DNA of 47,501 bases from a virus. The stretch's first letter is position 1. Each line of letters opens with the position of its first letter. Under the pieces are notes generated by a model that was not told the DNA's origin, did no database searches, and was given only the letters and a program-made list of their open reading frames with translations. Made by a program: the position numbers and the translations under genes. The DNA is taken from positions 1 through 47,501 of IMG/VR virus record IMGVR_UViG_3300047472_000084; one strand, written 5' to 3'. Shown here piece after piece: positions 3,934 through 47,501 of the stretch.

Positions 3934-4067
3934 GAAATAGTGACAAAAGTGACATAAGTGACCCCTAATCTCTATCTCTCCTTATAGACTTTAACATCTA
4001 TAGGAAGTAATAGGAAAACCCGTCACTTATGTCACTTTTGTCACTCGTACCGATCCGGTACTATCTC
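3934..4067 (+). promoter_or_regulatory. Duplicated iteron/inverted-repeat promoter element, copy 1
   Basis: A 134-bp intergenic element nearly identical to 19741-19876. Its left arm (3939-3962) is three 9-bp direct units (AGTGACAAA, AGTGACATA, AGTGAC). The right arm (4022-4045) is its perfect 24-base reverse complement. The 59-base AT-rich centre holds a smaller inverted repeat (TTATAGA, TCTATAG). Downstream lie a 15-bp palindrome GTACCGATCCGGTAC (4047-4061) and a -10-like TACTAT preceded by TTGTCA, but with only 15 bases between the boxes, against 17 in copy 2. It precedes the Cas4/RecB-like exonuclease. A dimeric or cooperative DNA-binding protein is expected to use it. Confidence 0.85.
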
Positions 4068-4092: not shown

Positions 4093-4101
4093 GTGTAGTA
4101 T
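4093..4101 (+). promoter_or_regulatory. Promoter GTGTAGTAT for the exonuclease
   Basis: An exact copy of the GTGTAGTAT box found eight times in the window. The -10 hexamer TAGTAT ends five bases before the GTG start at 4107, so the transcript is probably leaderless. It sits 25 bases after the duplicated iteron element. Confidence 0.6.
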
Positions 4102-4106
4102 GTCAC

Positions 4107-4958
4107 GTGACTACTCCCAAGGTAAAGACCATCAAGCGCCAGGACACCCGCTTCTACGTCGACCCCGACGACGCGGCCGTCAAGGTCCCCGGCGTGACCT
4201 CCGTCCTCAACATGATCGGCAAGCCCTTCCTCCAGCACTGGGCGGCGAAACTCGTCGCTGAGTACGCCGTCGACAACATGGGCCCGATCACCCAACTCGT
4301 CCTCAACGGGGACCGCCAGGGTGCCATCGACCTCGCCAAGGGCGCTCCGCGCCGTAACACGGCCCAGGCTGCCGACACCGGCACCGCCGCGCACGCCGCG
4401 TTCGAGCGCATGGCCAAGGGCCTCGGTCCGGGCCGCGTGACCCCTGACATCCAGGTCTTCGTCGAGCACTTCGACAAGTTCCTCAACGACCAGCAGCCCG
4501 AGTACGTGTTCCTCGAAGAGACCGTCTGGTCTGACACCTACGGCTACGCCGGATCCTTCGACGCCTACATGATCCTCAACGGCAAGCGCTACTTCGTCGA
4601 CAACAAGACGACCCGCAGCGGCATCCACGCCGAGGTCGGCATCCAGTTGGCCGCGTACCGCTACTCCGACAACATCATCCGCCAGGACGGCACCCGCGTC
4701 CCGACGCCGGAGGCGGACGGTGGCCTGGTGATCCACGTACGACCCGAAGGGCTCAAGGTCGTCGAGGTCCAGGCCGACGAGGAGTGCTTCGAGGTGTTCA
4801 AGGCCCTTCGCCAGGTCTTCGACTACGACAAGGGCCTCTCGAAGCAGATCGTCTCCGAGACCGAACTCTTCACGACCTACGTCGACGAGGACGCCCTCCC
4901 GACCGGCCCGCAGCGCCGTCGCCCGCGTGCCCCGAAGCGTGCTACAATTCCAGCATGA
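4107..4958 (+). CDS. Cas4/RecB-like PD-(D/E)XK exonuclease
   Basis: 283 residues from the GTG at 4107; an upstream in-frame ATG at 4029 lies inside the inverted repeat and is rejected. Nuclease signature: GTAAHAAFE with H96, YAGSFDAY with D152, YFVDNKTT with D165 and K167, then EVGIQLAAYRY with Q180 and Y184 (the QxxxY motif of RecB/Cas4 nucleases). Expected function: metal-dependent exonuclease in phage recombination or end processing. The C-terminus is basic (RRRPRAPKRA) and may bind DNA. The preceding regulatory element is duplicated in front of the endonuclease VII gene at 19896, suggesting co-regulated recombination nucleases. The stop overlaps the next ATG (ATGA). Confidence 0.85.
   Translation: MTTPKVKTIKRQDTRFYVDPDDAAVKVPGVTSVLNMIGKPFLQHWAAKLVAEYAVDNMGPITQLVLNGDRQGAIDLAKGAPRRNTAQAADTGTAAHAAFERMAKGLGPGRVTPDIQVFVEHFDKFLNDQQPEYVFLEETVWSDTYGYAGSFDAYMILNGKRYFVDNKTTRSGIHAEVGIQLAAYRYSDNIIRQDGTRVPTPEADGGLVIHVRPEGLKVVEVQADEECFEVFKALRQVFDYDKGLSKQIVSETELFTTYVDEDALPTGPQRRRPRAPKRATIPA
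4943..4954 (+). promoter_or_regulatory. Leaderless promoter (-10 TACAAT)
   Basis: TACAAT at 4943-4948, six bases, then ATG at 4955. It lies inside the end of the exonuclease coding region, so the next gene could be expressed both by coupling and by its own leaderless transcript. Confidence 0.5.
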
Positions 4959-10597: not shown

Positions 10598-10742
10598 GGG
10601 CGGCGATCCCGACTTCGCGCACCGCACGCGAACGAACCGCAGGGAGGAGCCGTTGCCAGTCGAACGGCTCCTCCAGTACCTCGACATACACTTCCCAGAC
10701 GACCCGGAGACAGATGCCAACCCCACCGAAGACCCTTCCTGA
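10590..10742 (+). CDS. Hypothetical small protein
   Basis: 50 residues starting VTKGGDPDFAHRTRTNRREE. It overlaps the previous gene by eight bases and the primase-helicase gene by 29 bases. Mostly charged, with PVERLLQYLDIHFP in the middle. The protein is plausible from its position only. Confidence 0.5.
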   Translation: MTKGGDPDFAHRTRTNRREEPLPVERLLQYLDIHFPDDPETDANPTEDPS

Positions 10743-13182
10743 TCTTCTCGACCGCCTCGCCGAAGTCTCCGAGGAGTCTGACGGCTGGCTCGCCGTCTGC
10801 CCCGGCCACGCCGACTCCAAGCCGTCCCTCCGCGTCTCCGTCGGCCAGACCAGCAAGGTGCTCCTCAAGTGCCGCGCAGGCTGCACCACCGAGCACGTCC
10901 TCGACAGCCTCGGCATGGACATGGCTGACCTGACGCACATGGCCCAGGGTGACGCCACCCCGCCGACCACTGCGCGCTCCACGTCCGCCCAGGCCACCCC
11001 CGGCGCCATCGCGGGCCTCGCCATGCGTCTCGACGGCTACGAGAGTGCGTTCGGCTTCGACGCAGGCCCCGCGGTCGACGCTCGGCTGTATGCCCTGCAC
11101 CGATTCGGTCTGGAGTTCGCCGACGCTTACCGGCTCGGTCTCGGCTACACCGACGACCTCGGCGGCAACGTCCCACGCCTCGTCGTGCCCTTCCGCACCC
11201 CCCAGGGTGTTGCCCGCAACTTCCAGGCGCGCGCTCTCGACCCGTCGGCCAAGGTCCGCTGGCAGGGCCCGAAGAGCCCCGAGGGTGGCTCCTGGTCGCC
11301 CCTCGGCTGGTTCCCCGGCGAGTCCGGCTGGTCTGAGGTCGTCATCGCTGAGGGCCCGGGCGACGCCCTGACCGCCGCTGCCGTCGGCTACGACACCATC
11401 GGGGTAGCAGGTGCTGCCCGAGTCAACAACCCGGCCATCGTCGCTGAGATCGCCCAGTGGACCACGGGACGCCCCGTCGTCATCGCAGGCGACGGTGACG
11501 CCGCAGGCCGCCAGTTCTCCGCGACCCTCGCCAAGGGCCTCATCGAACTCGGCGCCCACGTCCGCGTCCTCAACCTGCCCGACGGCGTCGACCTGAACGA
11601 CTGGCGCCTCACCGACCCGGCAGGGTTCCAAACGGCCCTCATCCGTGCCATCGAGAACGCCGAGACCACCACCACCTCGGCCACCGTCCGCGCCCGCTGG
11701 GACGACGCCAAGTACGAGATGACCGACCTCGGCAACGCCCAGTACCTCCGTGACTGGGTCGCTGGCCAGGGCTCCGGCGTTAAGTACAGCGCCGAGACCG
11801 GCTTCTACATCCTCCAGGACGGCATCTGGCGCCGCGACATCTCCGAGCAGATCCGCAAGGCCGCCCAGAGCGTCGCCAAGGATCTCGCCGCCCTCGCCAA
11901 GGACGCCCGCATCGAGGCCAGCAAGGAAGGTGCCGACGCCAAGATCATCGGCTTCTCCAAGGCCATGACCGCGCACTCCCGCTACACCCAGTCGACCAAG
12001 GGCATCGACTCGATGATCCGCGAACTCCGGCCCATGGTCGCCGTCGCACTCACCGAGTTCGACGCGCACCACCACCTCCTCGCCGTCAAGAACGGCGTGG
12101 TCGACCTGCGCACCGGCGAACTCCTCGCGCACGACCCGACGTACCTCATCACGCGCCAGGTCGAATTCAACTACCGGCCCGAGGCCACCGCCCCGCGCTG
12201 GGCCCAGTTCCTCACCGAGGTCTTCCCCGGCCAGTCCGGCATGCCCGAGTACATGCAACGCCTGACCGGCTACGGTGTCTCGGGTGAGACGGACGAGCAG
12301 TGCTTCTGCATATTCTACGGCACCGGCTCCAACGGCAAGAGCGTTTACACGGACACTCTCACCCGGATCTTCCAGGACATCACCACCACGACGCCCTTCT
12401 CGACCTTCGAGCAGAAGCCGAATGGCGGCATCCCGAACGACATCGCAGCCCTCAATGGGGCCCGCATGGTCGTCGCGTCCGAGGGCGAGGCCGGACGGTT
12501 CATGAACGAGTCGCTGATCAAGCGAGCCACCGGTAAGGACCCCCTCACCGCCCGCTTCCTCAACCGCGAGTTCTTCACGTTCTACCCGGAGTTCCTGCTC
12601 ACCCTCCTCACCAACGCCAAGCCCACCTTCCGCGGCGCTGACGAGGGCCTGTGGCGCCGTGTCAAGTTGATCGCCTGGGAACGGCACTTCGCCCCGTCCG
12701 AGCGCGATCCCCGACTCCCCGCGAAGTTGCTCGCCGAGGCCGAAGGCATCCTCGCCTGGGTCGTCCGCGGCGCCGTCGACTGGTATGCCAACGGGCTTCA
12801 GGATCCCGGCCGCATCAAGGACGCCACCGCCGAGTACCGTGCTACGAGCGACATCATGGATGGCTTCCTCCCCGGCGTCTTCATCAAGGACGAGAACGGC
12901 AAGGTCGAAGCCACCAGCGTGTTCAAGGCGTTCCAGGAGTGGGCCGACAGTGAGAACCACCTCGACCTCAAGAAGTGGTCCTCCCGTGCCTTCTACGGCG
13001 CCATGGAGGAGCGTCAGGTGATCCGCAAGCGGTCCACCGGCGGCAAGTTCGTCCTCCAGGGCATCCGCCGCGCTCCCCGCACGGCCGACAACCCCGAGTG
13101 GGCCGCAGCCCAGGAGCCCGCCGTCGAGCGGATCCTCGAAGGCGGCGGACCGATGCAAGGTGCAGACCTCGACATCGTGTGA
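10714..13182 (+). CDS. Primase-helicase (zinc finger, Toprim, SF3 D5/P4-type)
   Basis: 822 residues that should prime and unwind DNA at the phage fork. A zinc finger lies at C29, H32, C53, C57 (CPGH...CRAGC). A Toprim domain (~205-285) has EGPGDAL and AGDGDAAG, the acidic residues of DnaG-type primases. After a linker comes a D5-type helicase: Walker A GTGSNGKS (536-543), a Walker B-like VVASEGE, and LTNAKPTFRGADEGLWRRVKLI, the conserved stretch of SF3 helicases. ATG 10714 (CGGAGA upstream) is chosen over later starts because it keeps the zinc finger. A GTTTACAC motif lies directly in the Walker A coding region. DNA polymerase follows downstream. Confidence 0.9.
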   Translation: MPTPPKTLPDLLDRLAEVSEESDGWLAVCPGHADSKPSLRVSVGQTSKVLLKCRAGCTTEHVLDSLGMDMADLTHMAQGDATPPTTARSTSAQATPGAIAGLAMRLDGYESAFGFDAGPAVDARLYALHRFGLEFADAYRLGLGYTDDLGGNVPRLVVPFRTPQGVARNFQARALDPSAKVRWQGPKSPEGGSWSPLGWFPGESGWSEVVIAEGPGDALTAAAVGYDTIGVAGAARVNNPAIVAEIAQWTTGRPVVIAGDGDAAGRQFSATLAKGLIELGAHVRVLNLPDGVDLNDWRLTDPAGFQTALIRAIENAETTTTSATVRARWDDAKYEMTDLGNAQYLRDWVAGQGSGVKYSAETGFYILQDGIWRRDISEQIRKAAQSVAKDLAALAKDARIEASKEGADAKIIGFSKAMTAHSRYTQSTKGIDSMIRELRPMVAVALTEFDAHHHLLAVKNGVVDLRTGELLAHDPTYLITRQVEFNYRPEATAPRWAQFLTEVFPGQSGMPEYMQRLTGYGVSGETDEQCFCIFYGTGSNGKSVYTDTLTRIFQDITTTTPFSTFEQKPNGGIPNDIAALNGARMVVASEGEAGRFMNESLIKRATGKDPLTARFLNREFFTFYPEFLLTLLTNAKPTFRGADEGLWRRVKLIAWERHFAPSERDPRLPAKLLAEAEGILAWVVRGAVDWYANGLQDPGRIKDATAEYRATSDIMDGFLPGVFIKDENGKVEATSVFKAFQEWADSENHLDLKKWSSRAFYGAMEERQVIRKRSTGGKFVLQGIRRAPRTADNPEWAAAQEPAVERILEGGGPMQGADLDIV

Positions 13183-13695: not shown

Positions 13696-15540
13696 TTGCT
13701 CCACCAGACCCACACCGTCGCTGGCACCGTCTGCGACATTTACACGCCCGAGAACCGCCGTGACCTCGAAGGCTTCTTCGACTTCCTCCGCAAGATGGAC
13801 CGCGTCATCGGCCTCGACACCGAGACCTCCGGCCTCAACATCTTCTCCCCCGGCTTCGAACTCCGCCTCGTGCAGTTCGGCAACGACCGCGAGGCATGGG
13901 ACCTCCGCGCCGACCTCTTCCGCGAGGAGATCCGCGCCACGCTCCAGAGTGACCGTCTGTTCGCCGTGCACAACGCACCGTTCGACCTCCTCGTCATCGA
14001 CAAGCACCTCGGCGTGCCTGTCGAGACCCTGGCTCCCCGCGTCTTCGACACCCGCATCTTCGCCCACCTCATCGACCCCCGACAGGAGTCCGAGGGCGGC
14101 GCCGGGCTGTCCCTCAAGCCGCTCTCCGCGATCTACGTCGACCCCGACGCCCCGGACACGCAGACCGGCCTCTACGCCGAGTTCCGCAAGATCGGCAAGA
14201 CCAAGGACACCGGCTGGGCCTTCATCGACATCATGAACCCGTTGTACAACCGCTACGCGGGCCTCGACGTCATCTTCGTGACGCGCCTGTTCTACCAGTT
14301 GTCCGAGATCGTCAAGGGCATCGGCCTCTCGCGCCTCTCGAAGTTCGAGCACCTGTTCCAGTCCTACATCATGCTCCTCCAGCGCCGCGGCATGCTGGTC
14401 GACCTAGAGTACGCGGAGCGCCTGGACACGGACCTCTCCGTCGAGGCTGCCGAGGCCCGCCAGACCGCCGCGAAGTACGGCGTCGAGAACGTCAACTCCA
14501 CGGCGCAAATCGCCGAAGCACTCGTCGGCATGGGCGTCGGCCTTATCGAGCGCACGCCGTCCGGCGCCCTCAAGGTCGACAAGGGCGTCCTCCTGCCCCT
14601 CGCGGACATGGACCCCACGTGGAAGGATCTCGGCCTCCGCACGCCCAACCCGCTCGCCCTCGCCGTCCTCCACGCTAAGCGCGCCGAGAAGTGGCGTGTC
14701 GCTTACGTGGACGCATTCCGCACCCGCGCCGACAGCGACGGTCGCATACACCCGAACATCGGCACGCTCCAGGCGCGCACAGCCCGCATGTCCGTGAGCA
14801 ACCCCCCGCTCCAGCAGTTGCCCTCCAAGGAGTGGCGCGTCCGCCGCGCGATCCTGGCCGACCCTGGCATGCTCATGATGTCCGCTGACTACGACCAGGT
14901 CGAGTTCCGCGTCCTCGCGGCCCTAGCCGACGTCAAGGGCATGAAAACGGCTATCGCCGAAGGCATCGACCTCCACGACTTCACGGCCGAGATGCTGTAC
15001 GGCCCGGACTTCACGAAGTTCCAGCGCTCCCTCGGCAAGGGTGTCGGCTTCGGCAAGGTGTTCGGCGGTGGGGCTCCCACCCTGGCTCGACAGACCGGCG
15101 CTCCCATCGAGCAGGTCCGCGAGGCCATCGCGAAGTACGACGCCGTGTACCCCGAGATCAAGAAGTTCGGCCGGATGCTCCAGCGCAAGGCTGAGTACGG
15201 CAAGCGCGAGGTCGTTACGGTATCCGGCCGACACCTGCCCCTCGACAAGGACCGGCTCTACGCTGCCGTCAACTACGTCGTGCAGTCCACGGCTCGCGAC
15301 GTCATCGCAGAGTCCATCGTCGACATGTTCGACGCCGGGCTCGGCGACTACCTTATCTTGCCGATCCACGACGAAGTCCTGTTCCAGGCTCCCGCAGCCG
15401 ACGCCGAGGAAGTCGGCCGCGAGATCGGCAAGGTCATGTCGAAGCCGTTCATGGGCGTGCCCCTGACCGCGTCGGCCGAGGTCTACGGCAAGAACTGGGG
15501 CGGCGGCTACGGCGCGAACAAGGAGGAGGGCTCGTGGTAG
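13696..15540 (+). CDS. polA: Family A DNA polymerase with 3'-5' exonuclease
   Basis: 614 residues from TTG 13696 (GGAAGGGCACCAC upstream, like the TTG start at 7716). The exonuclease domain shows GLDTETSG (D41, E43), AVHNAPFDLLV and YAGLDVIFV. The polymerase domain shows motif A SADYDQVEFRVLAALAD (D398), motif B around LGKGVGFGKVFGGGAP, and motif C PIHDEV (H558, D559, E560). No 5'-3' exonuclease domain, as usual in phage. Motif B departs from the usual NFGxxYG: it reads GFGKVFG, with Phe at the place of the Tyr. It should be the replicative polymerase with the primase-helicase upstream. A one-mismatch GTTTACAC variant lies at 13738. Confidence 0.92.
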   Translation: MLHQTHTVAGTVCDIYTPENRRDLEGFFDFLRKMDRVIGLDTETSGLNIFSPGFELRLVQFGNDREAWDLRADLFREEIRATLQSDRLFAVHNAPFDLLVIDKHLGVPVETLAPRVFDTRIFAHLIDPRQESEGGAGLSLKPLSAIYVDPDAPDTQTGLYAEFRKIGKTKDTGWAFIDIMNPLYNRYAGLDVIFVTRLFYQLSEIVKGIGLSRLSKFEHLFQSYIMLLQRRGMLVDLEYAERLDTDLSVEAAEARQTAAKYGVENVNSTAQIAEALVGMGVGLIERTPSGALKVDKGVLLPLADMDPTWKDLGLRTPNPLALAVLHAKRAEKWRVAYVDAFRTRADSDGRIHPNIGTLQARTARMSVSNPPLQQLPSKEWRVRRAILADPGMLMMSADYDQVEFRVLAALADVKGMKTAIAEGIDLHDFTAEMLYGPDFTKFQRSLGKGVGFGKVFGGGAPTLARQTGAPIEQVREAIAKYDAVYPEIKKFGRMLQRKAEYGKREVVTVSGRHLPLDKDRLYAAVNYVVQSTARDVIAESIVDMFDAGLGDYLILPIHDEVLFQAPAADAEEVGREIGKVMSKPFMGVPLTASAEVYGKNWGGGYGANKEEGSW

Positions 15541-16904: not shown

Positions 16905-17686
16905 CCCACAACATCATCGACACCCTCGACCGCATCCCTAACCCGCCGCGCTCGGACGTCGAACGCGCCGAACTGATCGAACTCTCCCGTATCGGTGACG
17001 AGAGCGCCAAACTGGCCCTTCTCCGCATCTACCTCGCGCCCATCCTCAAGGAAGTCACCCGTGCCACCCGCAACGCCATCGGCGCCGGGCTGGTCTCCCA
17101 GGCGGACTTCGCGTCCACGCAGGAGGAGATCCTGAGCGAGGCCATCCTGGTCTTCTACCGTGTCGTCGAAGCCTTCGACCCCGCCCGCGGCATGCGGGGA
17201 TTCGTCACCTTCCTCACCCGAGCCCTGCGCAACGACGAGGGTGTAAACTCCGCCTCGAACCGTGCCCGCCCCATGCGGGTGCCGATGAACACGGCCATCA
17301 TGCGCACTCACGCCATCAAGGCCGCCGACGGCGACATCGACAAGGCCCGTGACCTCGCGCCGCAGTTCGGCCTCACCAAGAGCACTTTCGACGCCATCAC
17401 CCGCGTCTTCCAGTCGGACGTCCCCATCGACGACGCCACGGCAACGGGCATGGACCGCAACTACGTCCGCATCGAACACCTCCAGGACACGGGCCGCGCT
17501 CTTGCCGCCCTCGACTTCACCACCCGCATGATCGTCGAGTCCTCCTACGGTCTCAACGGGCAGCCCCAGCAGTCCAACCATGAGATCGCTGCGAACCTGG
17601 GAATCAGCCGACGTACCGTGCAGCGGCGCCTGGAGTCGGCTATGCTGACCATGCGTAACGAACTCAACCCCGAGGAGGAATCGTGA
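16901..17686 (+). CDS. Sigma-70-like transcription factor
   Basis: 261 residues. The N-terminal half has the helical outline of sigma region 2 (LLRIYLAPILKEVTRATRNA, then EEILSEAILVFYRVVEAFDP and RGMRGFVTFLTRALRNDEGV). The C-terminus resembles region 4: ALAALDFTTRMIVESSYGLN, SNHEIAANLGISRRTVQRRL, ending with a basic helix. It should bind host RNA polymerase and -35-like DNA. The region linking the halves has a second HTH-like segment (AAPQFGLTKSTF-like, LAPQFGLTKSTFDAI). A phage sigma factor here could direct late transcription. A reverse GTTTACAC site lies at 17241. Confidence 0.72.
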   Translation: MTHNIIDTLDRIPNPPRSDVERAELIELSRIGDESAKLALLRIYLAPILKEVTRATRNAIGAGLVSQADFASTQEEILSEAILVFYRVVEAFDPARGMRGFVTFLTRALRNDEGVNSASNRARPMRVPMNTAIMRTHAIKAADGDIDKARDLAPQFGLTKSTFDAITRVFQSDVPIDDATATGMDRNYVRIEHLQDTGRALAALDFTTRMIVESSYGLNGQPQQSNHEIAANLGISRRTVQRRLESAMLTMRNELNPEEES

Positions 17687-18153
17687 GCAACCCAGAGCCG
17701 ACCGTGCAGGTGCCCGTGTCGCTGATCGAGGACTGGGCGACGCAAGCCGAAGACGCAAAAGCGTGGAGTGCCGCCAATTCGATGCGCCACCTGCTCTCGC
17801 AGCCGACCCCGAGCGCCGAGCCGGTCAGCGCGGCACAGTTGCTCCGGGAACGAGCGGAGGCAGACCCGGGATCGCACCGCGAGAGTCTCGCACGTGGATA
17901 CGGCGTTGGTGACGCTCCGCCCCGCATCGAGGACATGGCACCGGGGACGACGTTCACGTGCGAGTACCAGGACTGGGCCACAAACGGACGTCCGAAGCAG
18001 CGCTACCTCTGTGCGATTGCCCGCTCCGGGAGCACCAGCACCCGGCTGTGCTTCCTTGATCCTTCGGGGGCAAGCCTGCACATCCGAGAGGCGCAGCAGA
18101 CCATCGACCCGTCCACGATCCGCGACGTTACGCCACCGAAGGAGACCCCGTGA
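17683..18153 (+). CDS. Hypothetical protein, possible distant relative of the 10238/13214 family
   Basis: 156 residues starting MSNPEPTVQVPVSLIEDWAT. It opens with the same TVxVPVxLI helix as the products at 10238 and 13214 and later has MAPGTTFTCEYQDWATNGRP at the place of their LPxGTVxxDxxGDxW strand. Between them is an insertion of Ala-rich helix. AGGAGGAATC provides a ribosome site besides the GTGA overlap with the sigma-like gene. Function unknown. Confidence 0.7.
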   Translation: MSNPEPTVQVPVSLIEDWATQAEDAKAWSAANSMRHLLSQPTPSAEPVSAAQLLRERAEADPGSHRESLARGYGVGDAPPRIEDMAPGTTFTCEYQDWATNGRPKQRYLCAIARSGSTSTRLCFLDPSGASLHIREAQQTIDPSTIRDVTPPKETP

Positions 18154-19740: not shown

Positions 19741-19876
19741 GAAATAGTGACAAAAGTGACATAAGTGACACCTATTCTCTATCTCTCCTTATAGACTTTA
19801 ACATCTATAGGAAGTAATAGGAAAACCCGTCACTTCTGTCACTTTTGTCACTATCGTACCGATCCGGTACTATCTC
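19741..19876 (+). promoter_or_regulatory. Duplicated iteron/inverted-repeat promoter element, copy 2
   Basis: A 136-bp near copy of 3934-4067 differing at about three bases plus a two-base insertion. Left arm 19746-19769 and right arm 19829-19852 are inverted repeats of 24 bases with one mismatch, each made of three 9-bp units. Unlike copy 1, the TTGTCA in the right arm (19845-19850) is exactly 17 bases from TACTAT (19868-19873), giving a good promoter whose -35 box is inside the iteron arm. The 15-bp palindrome GTACCGATCCGGTAC lies in the spacer. It precedes the endonuclease VII gene. Confidence 0.85.
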
Positions 19877-19880
19877 TACG

Positions 19881-19895
19881 GTGTAGTAGACAGCC
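19881..19895 (+). promoter_or_regulatory. Leaderless promoter GTGTAGTAG
   Basis: GTGTAGTAG (one change from the family box), six bases, ATG 19896. It lies four bases after the duplicated element, so two promoters are stacked. Confidence 0.5.
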
Positions 19896-20279
19896 ATGCC
19901 CTCCCCCGGACGCTACGTACCTTGCACCGTCTCTGACTGCTCCCGCCCCGCCAAGTCCAAGACCCTCTGCCCGCGGCACGCCCGCGTCTGCCGGACGTAC
20001 TTTGAGAACGATCCCGCCTACACCGCAGCATGGCTGACCGCGCACCCCGCGTGCGACAGTTGTGGATCCCCCGCCGCCCTCCGCGTCGACCACGACCACT
20101 CGCACTGCCGCACAGGTTGCAAGACATGTGTCCGAGGCAGGCTCTGCCATGGGTGCAACGTCGCAGAGGGTTACCTGGGCGGAGACCCCGCCCGTGCGCA
20201 GGCCCTTGCTGAGTATATGGTGAGAACTGCCGTCCCCGCGCTTGCCGCACGGGTGCCCGAGGGTAGTATCGAGACATGA
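19896..20279 (+). CDS. Recombination endonuclease VII
   Basis: 127 residues. CDSCGSPAALRVDHDHSHCR followed by CVRGRLCHGCNVAEGYLGGD is the endonuclease VII core: zinc-binding Cys pairs and the catalytic HDH of the His-Me fold. An additional N-terminal Cys-rich part (CTVSDCSRPAKSKTLCPRHA) may be a separate zinc finger. Endonuclease VII resolves Holliday junctions and branched DNA before packaging. It is the second nuclease placed behind the iteron element. ATG 19896 is preceded by a leaderless box. Confidence 0.9.
   Translation: MPSPGRYVPCTVSDCSRPAKSKTLCPRHARVCRTYFENDPAYTAAWLTAHPACDSCGSPAALRVDHDHSHCRTGCKTCVRGRLCHGCNVAEGYLGGDPARAQALAEYMVRTAVPALAARVPEGSIET
20261..20275 (+). promoter_or_regulatory. 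Leaderless promoter GGGTAGTAT
   Basis: GGGTAGTAT, six bases, ATG 20276. TTGCCG lies 16 bases upstream of TAGTAT. Located within the end of the endonuclease gene. Confidence 0.6.
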
Positions 20280-24154: not shown

Positions 24155-24615
24155 GCCCTGACACTTGTAGCCCGTAATCTAGATGCATGAGATTACGGGC
24201 TACAAGTGTGTCTACACTACTGTATATTATCATACGCGCACATACGCGCGCGAACTAAACTAGAACTCCAGACTAGGGCTTCAAACTGCTCTGGACTGAT
24301 ATGTGATATCTGAAATACTGATATTTCATATTTCGTATTTCACATATCACATATCGCATATCAGATATCACATCCAACATGCCACATACCAGTATTTCAC
24401 CGGCCACGCGATCCCGGACGCCGTTGTCCGGCCGCTGTGGCCATGGATCAAGTCTCTGACGCCGAAACCCCTATAGCCAAGCCCGGCAAGCCGTATCGGG
24501 GTACAAATACCTGGCAAAGACCTGGGAAACCAGGGTTTACACGCTCACCGGCCCCGGAACGCCGTAATGTCGTCCTTGTCACCAACCGGGTGGCCCGACA
24601 GACAGGACAGAGATC
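24155..24615. other. Non-coding AT-rich island 1
   Basis: 461 bases without a credible gene. It holds a 20-bp perfect hairpin (24161-24209), an AT-rich block 24290-24375 made of repeated GATAT/ATATC words (ATGTGATATCTGA and its reverse complement TCAGATATCACAT flank its core), a more GC-rich stretch with CCTGGGAAA, and a GTTTACAC site at 24535. The composition contrasts sharply with the rest of the genome. Candidate replication origin or cassette border. Confidence 0.75.
24161..24209. repeat. 20-bp perfect inverted repeat
   Basis: ACACTTGTAGCCCGTAATCT (24161-24180) is followed after AGATGCATG by its exact reverse complement (24190-24209). No T-tract follows, so a simple intrinsic terminator is less likely than a cruciform or protein site. 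Confidence 0.85.
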
Positions 24616-27222: not shown

Positions 27223-27687
27223 GCTATGCCCGGCCTACCACGGGCACCCCCATATAGGGCCCCCTATACAGGGCCCCTATATAGCACCCCCCATATACAG
27301 GGCCCTGTATGCAAGGGCCTATATGCTAGGGGGTGCATACGCATGCTCATACATGCATGCATGCATCGTAAGCATAGATATCGTACTGACATATCAGTAT
27401 GGTACAACACACAATCATGTGATGTATCACACAGAATTGTATGCAATACATTACACATTACATTGCACATGTTCAATGCAAGATGCAATGTCATAGTCAA
27501 TGATGTATCAAATAAAATAAATAAAATATTACATCAACTAACATGATATATCAGACACGACATATAACATTGAAATATTACCGGCGACATTTCACATCCG
27601 GCATATCAAATTTGAAATGACTCCCCCTGGCATATCACTTTTTTTGCCGAAGCGGCATAGCGCCTCAGTACGCGCGCGGGTCTGGAA
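27223..27687. other. Non-coding AT-rich island 2 with nested repeats
   Basis: No credible gene. The left part (27245-27340) packs alternating TATA and poly-C/G words with palindromes such as TACAGGGCCCTGTA, and an imperfect inverted repeat between GCACCCCCCATATA and TATATGCTAGGGGGTGC. Then follow ATGCATGCATGCAT and about 200 bases of AT-rich sequence with ACATTACA-type words and AATAAAATAAATAAAATA. The sequence has the properties of an easily unwound region. Candidate origin or recombination junction; no start codon or ribosome site in it is convincing. Confidence 0.75.
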
Positions 27688-28175: not shown

Positions 28176-28260
28176 GGCGTGTGAAGTCCCAGCGGTGGGA
28201 CACTGGCTTCGAAACCCAGGGGTCGCTCACACGGCAGGGGTTCGACTCCTCCGCACGCCG
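28176..28260 (+). tRNA. tRNA-Ser (anticodon CGA)
   Basis: An 85-base cloverleaf. Acceptor GGCGTGT pairs with GCACGCC (one T-G), discriminator G. D-stem GTCC/GGAC. Anticodon arm CTGG.../...CCAG around TTCGAAA with anticodon CGA (serine UCG), with a C-C mismatch at the loop edge. A long variable arm (GTCG and CGGC) as expected for serine, T-loop TTCGACT. Three bases rather than two precede the D-stem and there is one T-stem mismatch, so it may be weak. No encoded CCA. It could serve UCG-rich late genes. Confidence 0.72.
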
Positions 28261-28261
28261 C

Positions 28262-46916: not shown

Positions 46917-47376
46917 CGCCGTCGTAGTTTCCAGTATCGGCGGCCTCGTCACCATCATCGGTGCCATCATCGGCTACCTCACCGTCCGCGCGCGACTCAA
47001 GTTTGCCCGCGAGAACCCACGCGCCATCGTCCCTGATGACGATGAGGAGCGCGAGGCAGAAGAGCGCTACGGCGCCGACCCCCGGCTGTTCATCAAGGAC
47101 ATCATGGAGGACCGTCGCCAGTACCGCGAGGAGGTCGCGGGCTACCGCGAAGAGGTCAACGGGCTCCGGAAGGAACTCAAGGACTTCCGCGAGAAGGACC
47201 GCAAGTTCCGCAACGCGCTCGCTCGCTGGTTCGTCGAGATCCTAGCGACCTTCGAGCACCACGGCATCCCCATGCCCTACCCCATCGAGCAGGACCAAGA
47301 GATCCTGGCCGACGTCATCCCGACCGCGCTAGAGGCCACTCGGCCGTCGCGGCCCCCCGCACCTCCACCCGAGTAG
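46909..47376 (+). CDS. Membrane-anchored coiled-coil protein in lysis cassette
   Basis: 155 residues from GTG 46909 (AGAGAGGCAAGCACC upstream). A single N-terminal helix (VSDAVVVSSIGGLVTIIGAI and on to ~25) is followed by a charged coiled coil (EEVAGYREEVNGLRKELKDF). The layout is like an i-spanin or LydB-type regulator, but Gram-positive hosts need no spanin; a holin-regulating role is possible. Its end overlaps the repeat that closes the genome and leads to the tail-fibre GTG. Confidence 0.7.
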   Translation: MSDAVVVSSIGGLVTIIGAIIGYLTVRARLKFARENPRAIVPDDDEEREAEERYGADPRLFIKDIMEDRRQYREEVAGYREEVNGLRKELKDFREKDRKFRNALARWFVEILATFEHHGIPMPYPIEQDQEILADVIPTALEATRPSRPPAPPPE

Positions 47377-47501
47377 GAGCACCCTTCGTGCAGTATGGAA
47401 CCGTAACCGGCCGCTTCCTGGCCACCGTCGCTGACACCACCGGCGACCCCGACAACTTCCCCGACGAAGTGCCGGTCACCGGCAAGGTGCGGTTCACCCC
47501 C
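47375..47501. repeat. Terminal direct repeat, right copy
   Basis: Identical to bases 1-127, including the ribosome site and start of the tail-fibre gene, which here follows the preceding membrane gene without a break. Confirms that the contig closes into a circle. Confidence 0.95.

Follow-up and report, generated by a model that had tools for sequence, protein, structure and literature searches.

Paired inverted-iteron elements as putative replication origins in a tailed phage with a D5/P4-type primase-helicase

Two near-identical intergenic elements lie 15.8 kb apart in the virus record analysed here (the window, 47,501 bases, 64% GC), and we consider it very probable that each is a replication origin, which would serve as the binding site of an initiator of the D5/P4-type primase-helicase kind. 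The window carries a direct terminal repeat of 127 bp (1-127 and 47375-47501), and it is thus a complete genome, either circular or terminally redundant. A reading made from the letters of this genome (the sequence-only reading) had mentioned a twin origin in an aside; this is now the best-supported reading, owing to the recurrence of the architecture elsewhere and its linkage to SF3 initiator genes. From these comparisons we infer that the elements represent a P4/PICI-type origin that now exists in two copies and has come to lie away from its rep gene.

The stretches common to the two copies measure 134 bp for element 1 (3934-4067) and 136 bp for element 2 (19741-19876), and they are 95-96% identical; no third copy was found in the window. 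Each element is bounded by inverted arms, and every arm holds three 9-bp iterons of the form AGTGACxxA. The left arm of element 1 (3939-3962, plus strand, 24 nt) consists of AGTGACAAA AGTGACATA AGTGAC, and its right arm (4022-4045, minus strand) repeats the same three iterons in inverted orientation with 100% complementarity. In element 2 the left arm (19744-19769, plus strand) is 26 nt long, and the inverted iterons of the right arm (19829-19854, minus strand) show one mismatch to it (96% complementary). Between the arms lies an AT-rich centre of 59 nt, at 3963-4021 in element 1, where it is the proposed melting site and belongs to the four 60-bp stretches with the highest AT content in the genome, and at 19770-19828 in element 2. 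Both centres contain an inner inverted repeat with 17-nt arms matching at 76% (3972-3988/3997-4013 and 19779-19795/19804-19820). The arms are followed by a 15-bp palindrome with 6-bp arms, GTACCGATCCGGTAC, at 4047-4061 and, to the right of the arms of element 2, at 19856-19870; the first of these is retained at copy 1 of relatives. The likeness of the two elements continues beyond the arms, through GAAAT at the left and CGTACCGATCCGGTACTATCTC at the right. In all of these respects, namely two near-identical intergenic copies, inverted arms of three 9-bp units, an AT-rich centre with a second inverted repeat and a 15-bp palindrome, the sequence-only reading had described the elements correctly.

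The iterons are confined to these sites to a degree that chance does not reproduce. The sequence AGTGACNNAAGTGAC occurs eight times without mismatch in the window, every time inside the arms of the two elements. When up to two mismatches are allowed, nine occurrences are observed against an expectation of 0.71, a count that was not attained in any of 100 shuffles. As single-stranded DNA, the two elements also fold much better than shuffled sequences, with z values of -9.3 and -10.7.

It had been proposed that the element be sought in related phages and beyond, and it is indeed present in relatives, in distant phages and in genomes. A BLAST search with the element alone gave phage 4A as the sole credible match among named phages; wider recurrence emerged from pattern searches for the architecture. 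For viral contigs we used a pattern of two iterons per side, inverted, with 45-75 nt between the sides, which recovered 15 stretches in 13 contigs, mostly from phages that are not close to that of the window. Control searches matched one contig with a scrambled iteron and three with the iterons in direct orientation, compared with 13 for the real pattern. The lone match to the scrambled iteron (contig L132, 5511-5608) is itself an example of the inverted-iteron architecture, built from GTAGCCNNA units (GTAGC); an SF3 gene was not found on this 7-kb contig. A relaxed pattern, applied to 84,980 prokaryote species genomes, yielded 67 loci in many phyla, archaea included, which amount to 63 distinct elements when identical sequences in unrelated assemblies are collapsed. 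The element was not recognised in the related phages Gack and Dubu, in JCL1032 or in a Parageobacillus plasmid stretch. A search of the accessible literature found no paper on these phage elements.

The genes beside these elements give an indication of function. Using an iterated profile of the primase-helicase of the window on loci of up to 8 kb, we detected an SF3 primase-helicase gene of the D5/P4 type in 33 of the 67 genome loci, which correspond to 29 distinct elements. The element lies 0-224 bp from the 3′ end of that gene in 28 of these 33 loci. The background density of D5_N domains, 25 in about 153 Mb (34 of the genomes), predicts about 0.1 chance neighbours in the 0.54 Mb covered by the loci, a comparison that is conservative because the density was measured in genomes chosen for having the element. 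In the other 34 loci the profile finds no SF3 gene; some hold VapE/DUF5906 helicases, and some are probably unrelated repeats. Among the 13 viral contigs, ten encode a D5_N domain, another encodes a DUF5906/phage-primase protein, and in one more the element coincides with a match to DNA polymerase/primase. Three further phages have inverted 9-bp iterons next to their primase-helicase gene, namely mycobacteriophage Adephagia (GGCACAGAT), Rhodobacter phage RcapNL (GGGACGCAA) and Bordetella phage BMP-1 (CGAGGCAAA). Of four plasmids with a P4-family primase gene that we examined, three have such iterons near it, with the words GTGAACGAT, GGTTACTGA and GGGAC. Judging by these arrays, the design is common to other members of the initiator family while the iteron word differs.

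Two sets of genome loci deserve separate mention. Four (L040, L049, L050 and L060) share the same element and the same 875-aa primase-helicase gene in assemblies of unrelated taxa, which indicates either cross-contamination or a very mobile element. Eight others (L033, L035, L051, L053, L064, L065, L095 and L096), from Bacteroidota, Desulfobacterota and other genomes, carry inverted GTGACTAAA-type arrays but lack an SF3 gene within the locus, and these may be an unrelated repeat element.

The window is not alone in having two copies. Eight phage genomes carry two copies each, separated by 15.8 kb in the window, 16.7 kb in 4A (on the circle), 15.5 kb in 3300046518_000212, 17.4 kb in 3300013308_000029, 17.0 kb in Maureen, 16.8 kb in Emotion, 15.4 kb in Reedo and 15.5 kb in Tutumahutu, a range of 15.4-17.4 kb. 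Copy 1 precedes a Cas4-type exonuclease gene wherever the neighbours were read, and copy 2 follows a serine integrase in Maureen, Reedo and Tutumahutu. Likeness between the copies of one genome is 81-87% in 4A and 3300046518_000212 and 72-88% in the other five, compared with mostly 40-60% between genera. In a tree of the copies, the two from one genome are each other's nearest relatives in five of the eight cases; 4A and 3300046518_000212, which are a close pair, group by position, and the copies of Tutumahutu do not pair. The arms also drift together, with ATGAC in both Reedo and Tutumahutu and a mixture of GTGGC and GTGAC in Emotion, as would be expected if one protein must read both copies. 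The earlier proposal of strong selection or recent gene conversion therefore stands in a modified form, as concerted evolution, the copies being mostly more alike within a genome than between genera.

The same comparisons bear on two simpler explanations for the near-identity. An identity of 96% within a metagenomic virus record could reflect duplication during assembly, as the sequence-only reading had cautioned, but the copies differ, their flanks are unique, and two copies recur in independent genomes, including 4A, 3300046518_000212 and the isolated phages Emotion, Maureen, Reedo and Tutumahutu, with Arthrobacter phages among them. This possibility is refuted, and we assign it next to no probability. 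Hardly more credible is a MITE-like small mobile element that copied itself within the genome. The elements are short, intergenic and near-identical, with terminal inverted repeats, as such an element would be; however, target duplication is absent at their ends, the likeness extends past the arms, their positions are conserved across genera, and there are always two per genome and no matching transposase. Both explanations were rejected. At the same sites we observed that in 4A (L013) and in locus L015 a long inverted repeat, TTTGTACCCCGAA...TTTGGGGTACAA, precedes copy 1, and that a half-copy of it also precedes copy 2 in 4A; it is possibly a terminator or an operator.

The placement of the elements in front of genes raises the alternative that they constitute a shared promoter or operator switch that co-regulates recombination nucleases, with the iterons acting as operators for a phage regulator. 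The sequence-only reading favoured such a switch, and several of its observations were accurate. Element 1 lies upstream of a Cas4-type exonuclease gene (4107-4958, plus strand; phrog_298, E 1e-47), a linkage that is kept in relatives, and element 2 lies upstream of an endonuclease VII gene (19896-20279, plus strand; Pfam Endonuclease_7, E 2e-8). The spacing of the boxes was also given correctly, as TTGTCA-17-TACTAT in copy 2 and a spacer of 15 in copy 1. In addition, each copy stands upstream of a promoter-like motif, and the initiator could also autoregulate from the elements. Nevertheless, the components of the proposed switch are not kept in relatives. Phage 4A (LN889993) has both elements at syntenic places, but the second lacks the palindrome, the TACTAT box and the endonuclease VII gene, and in contig IMGVR 3300046518_000212 the second copy retains the element while the palindrome and TACTAT are gone. 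The proposed "-35" TTGTCA is part of an iteron and reads CCGTCA in both of these relatives, so that the -35 and -10 boxes are not conserved between copies and relatives in the way that would identify a sigma-70 promoter or operator. Moreover, in unrelated phages and genomes the element adjoins primase-helicase genes rather than nucleases, and since it lies 3′ of those genes it cannot be their promoter. An operator also would not need a 59-nt AT-rich centre. A role as a nuclease switch is therefore improbable, and it was rejected as the main function of the elements.

A different motif is plausibly the better promoter candidate. The sequence TGTAGTAT (4094-4101, plus strand) immediately precedes the start codon of the exonuclease gene, and its variant TGTAGTAG (19882-19889, plus strand) immediately precedes that of the endonuclease VII gene, each copy of the element being located just upstream of one such motif. 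There are nine occurrences in the window (one of them the variant), exclusively on the plus strand, at 4094, 5840, 7355, 7658, 9632, 13557, 15915, 19882 and 27718. Four of the nine stand 5-7 nt before an ATG or GTG start, which suggests a family of phage promoters with leaderless mRNAs. These candidate promoters adjoin the elements but do not account for them.

The window encodes one recognised gene for the kind of protein that would act at these origins. The putative initiator is an 822-aa Toprim, D5_N and SF3 (DUF5906) primase-helicase (10714-13182, plus strand; Pfam D5_N, E 1.3e-32; phrog_6088, E 1e-236), and its gene lies midway between the copies, about 6.6 kb from each. Downstream in the same replication module is a family A DNA polymerase gene (PolA; 13696-15540, plus strand; Pfam DNA_pol_A, E 3e-57), and these two are the main replication genes found in the window, with small open reading frames searched in part. 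A model of the SF3 and C-terminal part (pLDDT 86) matches ASFV C962R with a Z score of 31.4 and the SaPI5 primase-helicase with 29.0.

The C-terminal domain of this protein (12820-13083, plus strand; 88 residues) is modelled by AF2 as a winged helix (pLDDT 81) and is the proposed reader of the iterons. When it was modelled alone, the two nearest folds came from human RFX5 (Z 9.8) and RFX1 (Z 9.2), in each case from the DNA-binding domain, and the family profile matches RFX1 (1dp7) with an E value of 0.0029. Among homologues, Pfam recognises RFX_DNA_binding in 6 of 26 at a relaxed E of 0.1, and Pox_D5 is commoner (20 of 26). RFX proteins bind X-box half-sites with the sequence GTNRCC (PMC5752003), which is compatible with the iterons GTGAC, GTGGC and GTAGC. 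However, RFX proteins are eukaryotic transcription factors, and strict conformity of all iterons to the half-site GTNRC was rejected because GGGAC, ATGAC and GGCAC, found in related phages, do not fit. The likeness between the RFX motif and the iterons may be taken as a suggestive lead only.

Several characterised replicons share parts of this organisation. Among the closest are the origins of PICIs, in which two sets of iterons surround an AT-rich region 3′ of rep and deletion impairs replication (PMC6092414), an arrangement that the authors of that study knew from no other bacterial replicon (PMC6092414). As in PICIs and SaPIs with Pri-Rep (the SaPI5 primase-helicase, 7OLA), iteron sets flank an AT-rich region, and the putative initiator, of the P4/D5 type and encoded in the same replicon, belongs to the same SF3 primase-helicase family. 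In contrast, the window represents a tailed phage with two copies per genome, and each copy is about 6.6 kb from the initiator gene rather than directly 3′ of it, as it is in 28 of the 33 homologous genome loci. Because of this distance we classify the elements as a variant that would work like a PICI origin, and not as a PICI origin. Phage P4 provides a second parallel: its alpha protein is a P4/D5-type initiator with two separated cis regions, ori and crr. The record of crr, which is located just 3′ of alpha, states that replication needs it in cis; its type-1 repeats are inverted, spaced at 9 bp and arranged about an AT-rich centre. The P4 repeat is GGTGAACA, however, not AGTGACxxA, and ori and crr differ in layout whereas the copies in the window are near-identical. 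One further phage (L105, from G014; 17650-17876) carries two adjoining elements of the same type, which recalls the doubled crr of P4.

More distant comparisons are also informative. The stem-loop origin of plasmid pRN1, 100 bp long and located 3′ of the SF3 replication gene, is indispensable and still functions after being moved away from that gene (PMC4234260). It resembles the elements described here as an inverted structure of about 100 bp that serves an SF3 and winged-helix replication protein (PMC4234260), but it has no iterons, and the protein carries an archaeo-eukaryotic primase domain instead of Toprim. The 44-kb genome of phage SPP1 has two similar origins, oriL and oriR, separated by about 13 kb and containing repeats and an AT-rich region that melts (PMC6316719). 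A switch from theta to concatemeric replication has been proposed to occur there when forks stall at oriR bound by gp38 (PMC6316719). SPP1 thus shares with the window a pair of similar (here putative) origins far apart in one phage genome, but its initiation system (gp38, gp39 and the DnaB-type helicase gp40) is unrelated, and oriL lies inside gene 38.

If the elements are origins, their features suggest how initiation might proceed. The 822-aa primase-helicase would bind the inverted AGTGACxxA iterons through its C-terminal winged helix, and two initiator assemblies would thereby come to flank the AT-rich centre, which would then melt. The helicase, the primase and the phage PolA would begin synthesis. 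The copies are located about one third of the circle apart and flank the replication module; both might fire, or one might be a helper site like P4 crr or a fork barrier. Against the origin reading, the rep gene of the window lies apart from the elements, whereas in PICIs, in P4 (crr) and in most homologues the two adjoin. The 34 genome loci in which the profile finds no SF3 gene, and the failure to recognise such an element in Gack and Dubu, also count against it. The GC skew of the window is uniformly negative with no turning point, and is uninformative for locating an origin.

A related question is whether the two copies do the same thing. One may be an origin, with the other serving as an accessory site in cis, such as a helper resembling P4 crr or a fork barrier resembling SPP1 oriR; this is a form of the origin reading rather than an exclusive rival to it, and we would put the chance that the roles differ somewhat below even. 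Precedents exist in P4, which needs both ori and crr, each with type-1 repeats, and in SPP1, with its two origins about 13 kb apart (PMC6316719) compared with 15.4-17.4 kb here. The phage also encodes an exonuclease, a RusA-like resolvase and endonuclease VII, which would suit recombination-dependent replication. However, since the copies are near-identical, nothing in their sequence sets one apart from the other. A broader synthesis of the origin reading holds that tailed phages with a D5-type primase-helicase maintain two matching origins, separated by about one third of the genome and kept alike by concerted evolution, that forks meeting the initiator at the other copy would turn theta replication into recombination-dependent concatemer formation, and that an RFX-type helix reads the iterons in one grammar common to phages, satellites and plasmids, with possible common ancestry with RFX/X-box recognition. 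Taken as a whole, this synthesis is speculative and rather unlikely to hold in every part.

Origins are unannotated in the related phages examined, and a simple rule (inverted 9-bp iterons, an AT-rich centre and an SF3 primase-helicase nearby) finds candidates in genomes, plasmids and satellites as well as in distant phages. Autonomous phages and plasmids would thereby join the PICIs, to which this origin design was described as exclusive. The paired elements would also make up a two-origin system for which a candidate initiator is available, and they offer an explanation of concerted evolution that can be tested, and the RFX-like reader domain opens a possible protein-DNA code to direct testing.

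Other parts of the window have unusual structure as well. AT content is highest at 27380-27620, where it reaches 82% in 60 bp, and TATAGGGCCC-rich palindromes precede this stretch. At 24160-24385, a long near-perfect hairpin (GACACTTGTAGCCCGTAATC...) comes before an intergenic region of inverted repeats rich in ATATC. A tRNA-Ser(CGA) gene occupies 28176-28261 and has 95.5% identity in phage 4A.
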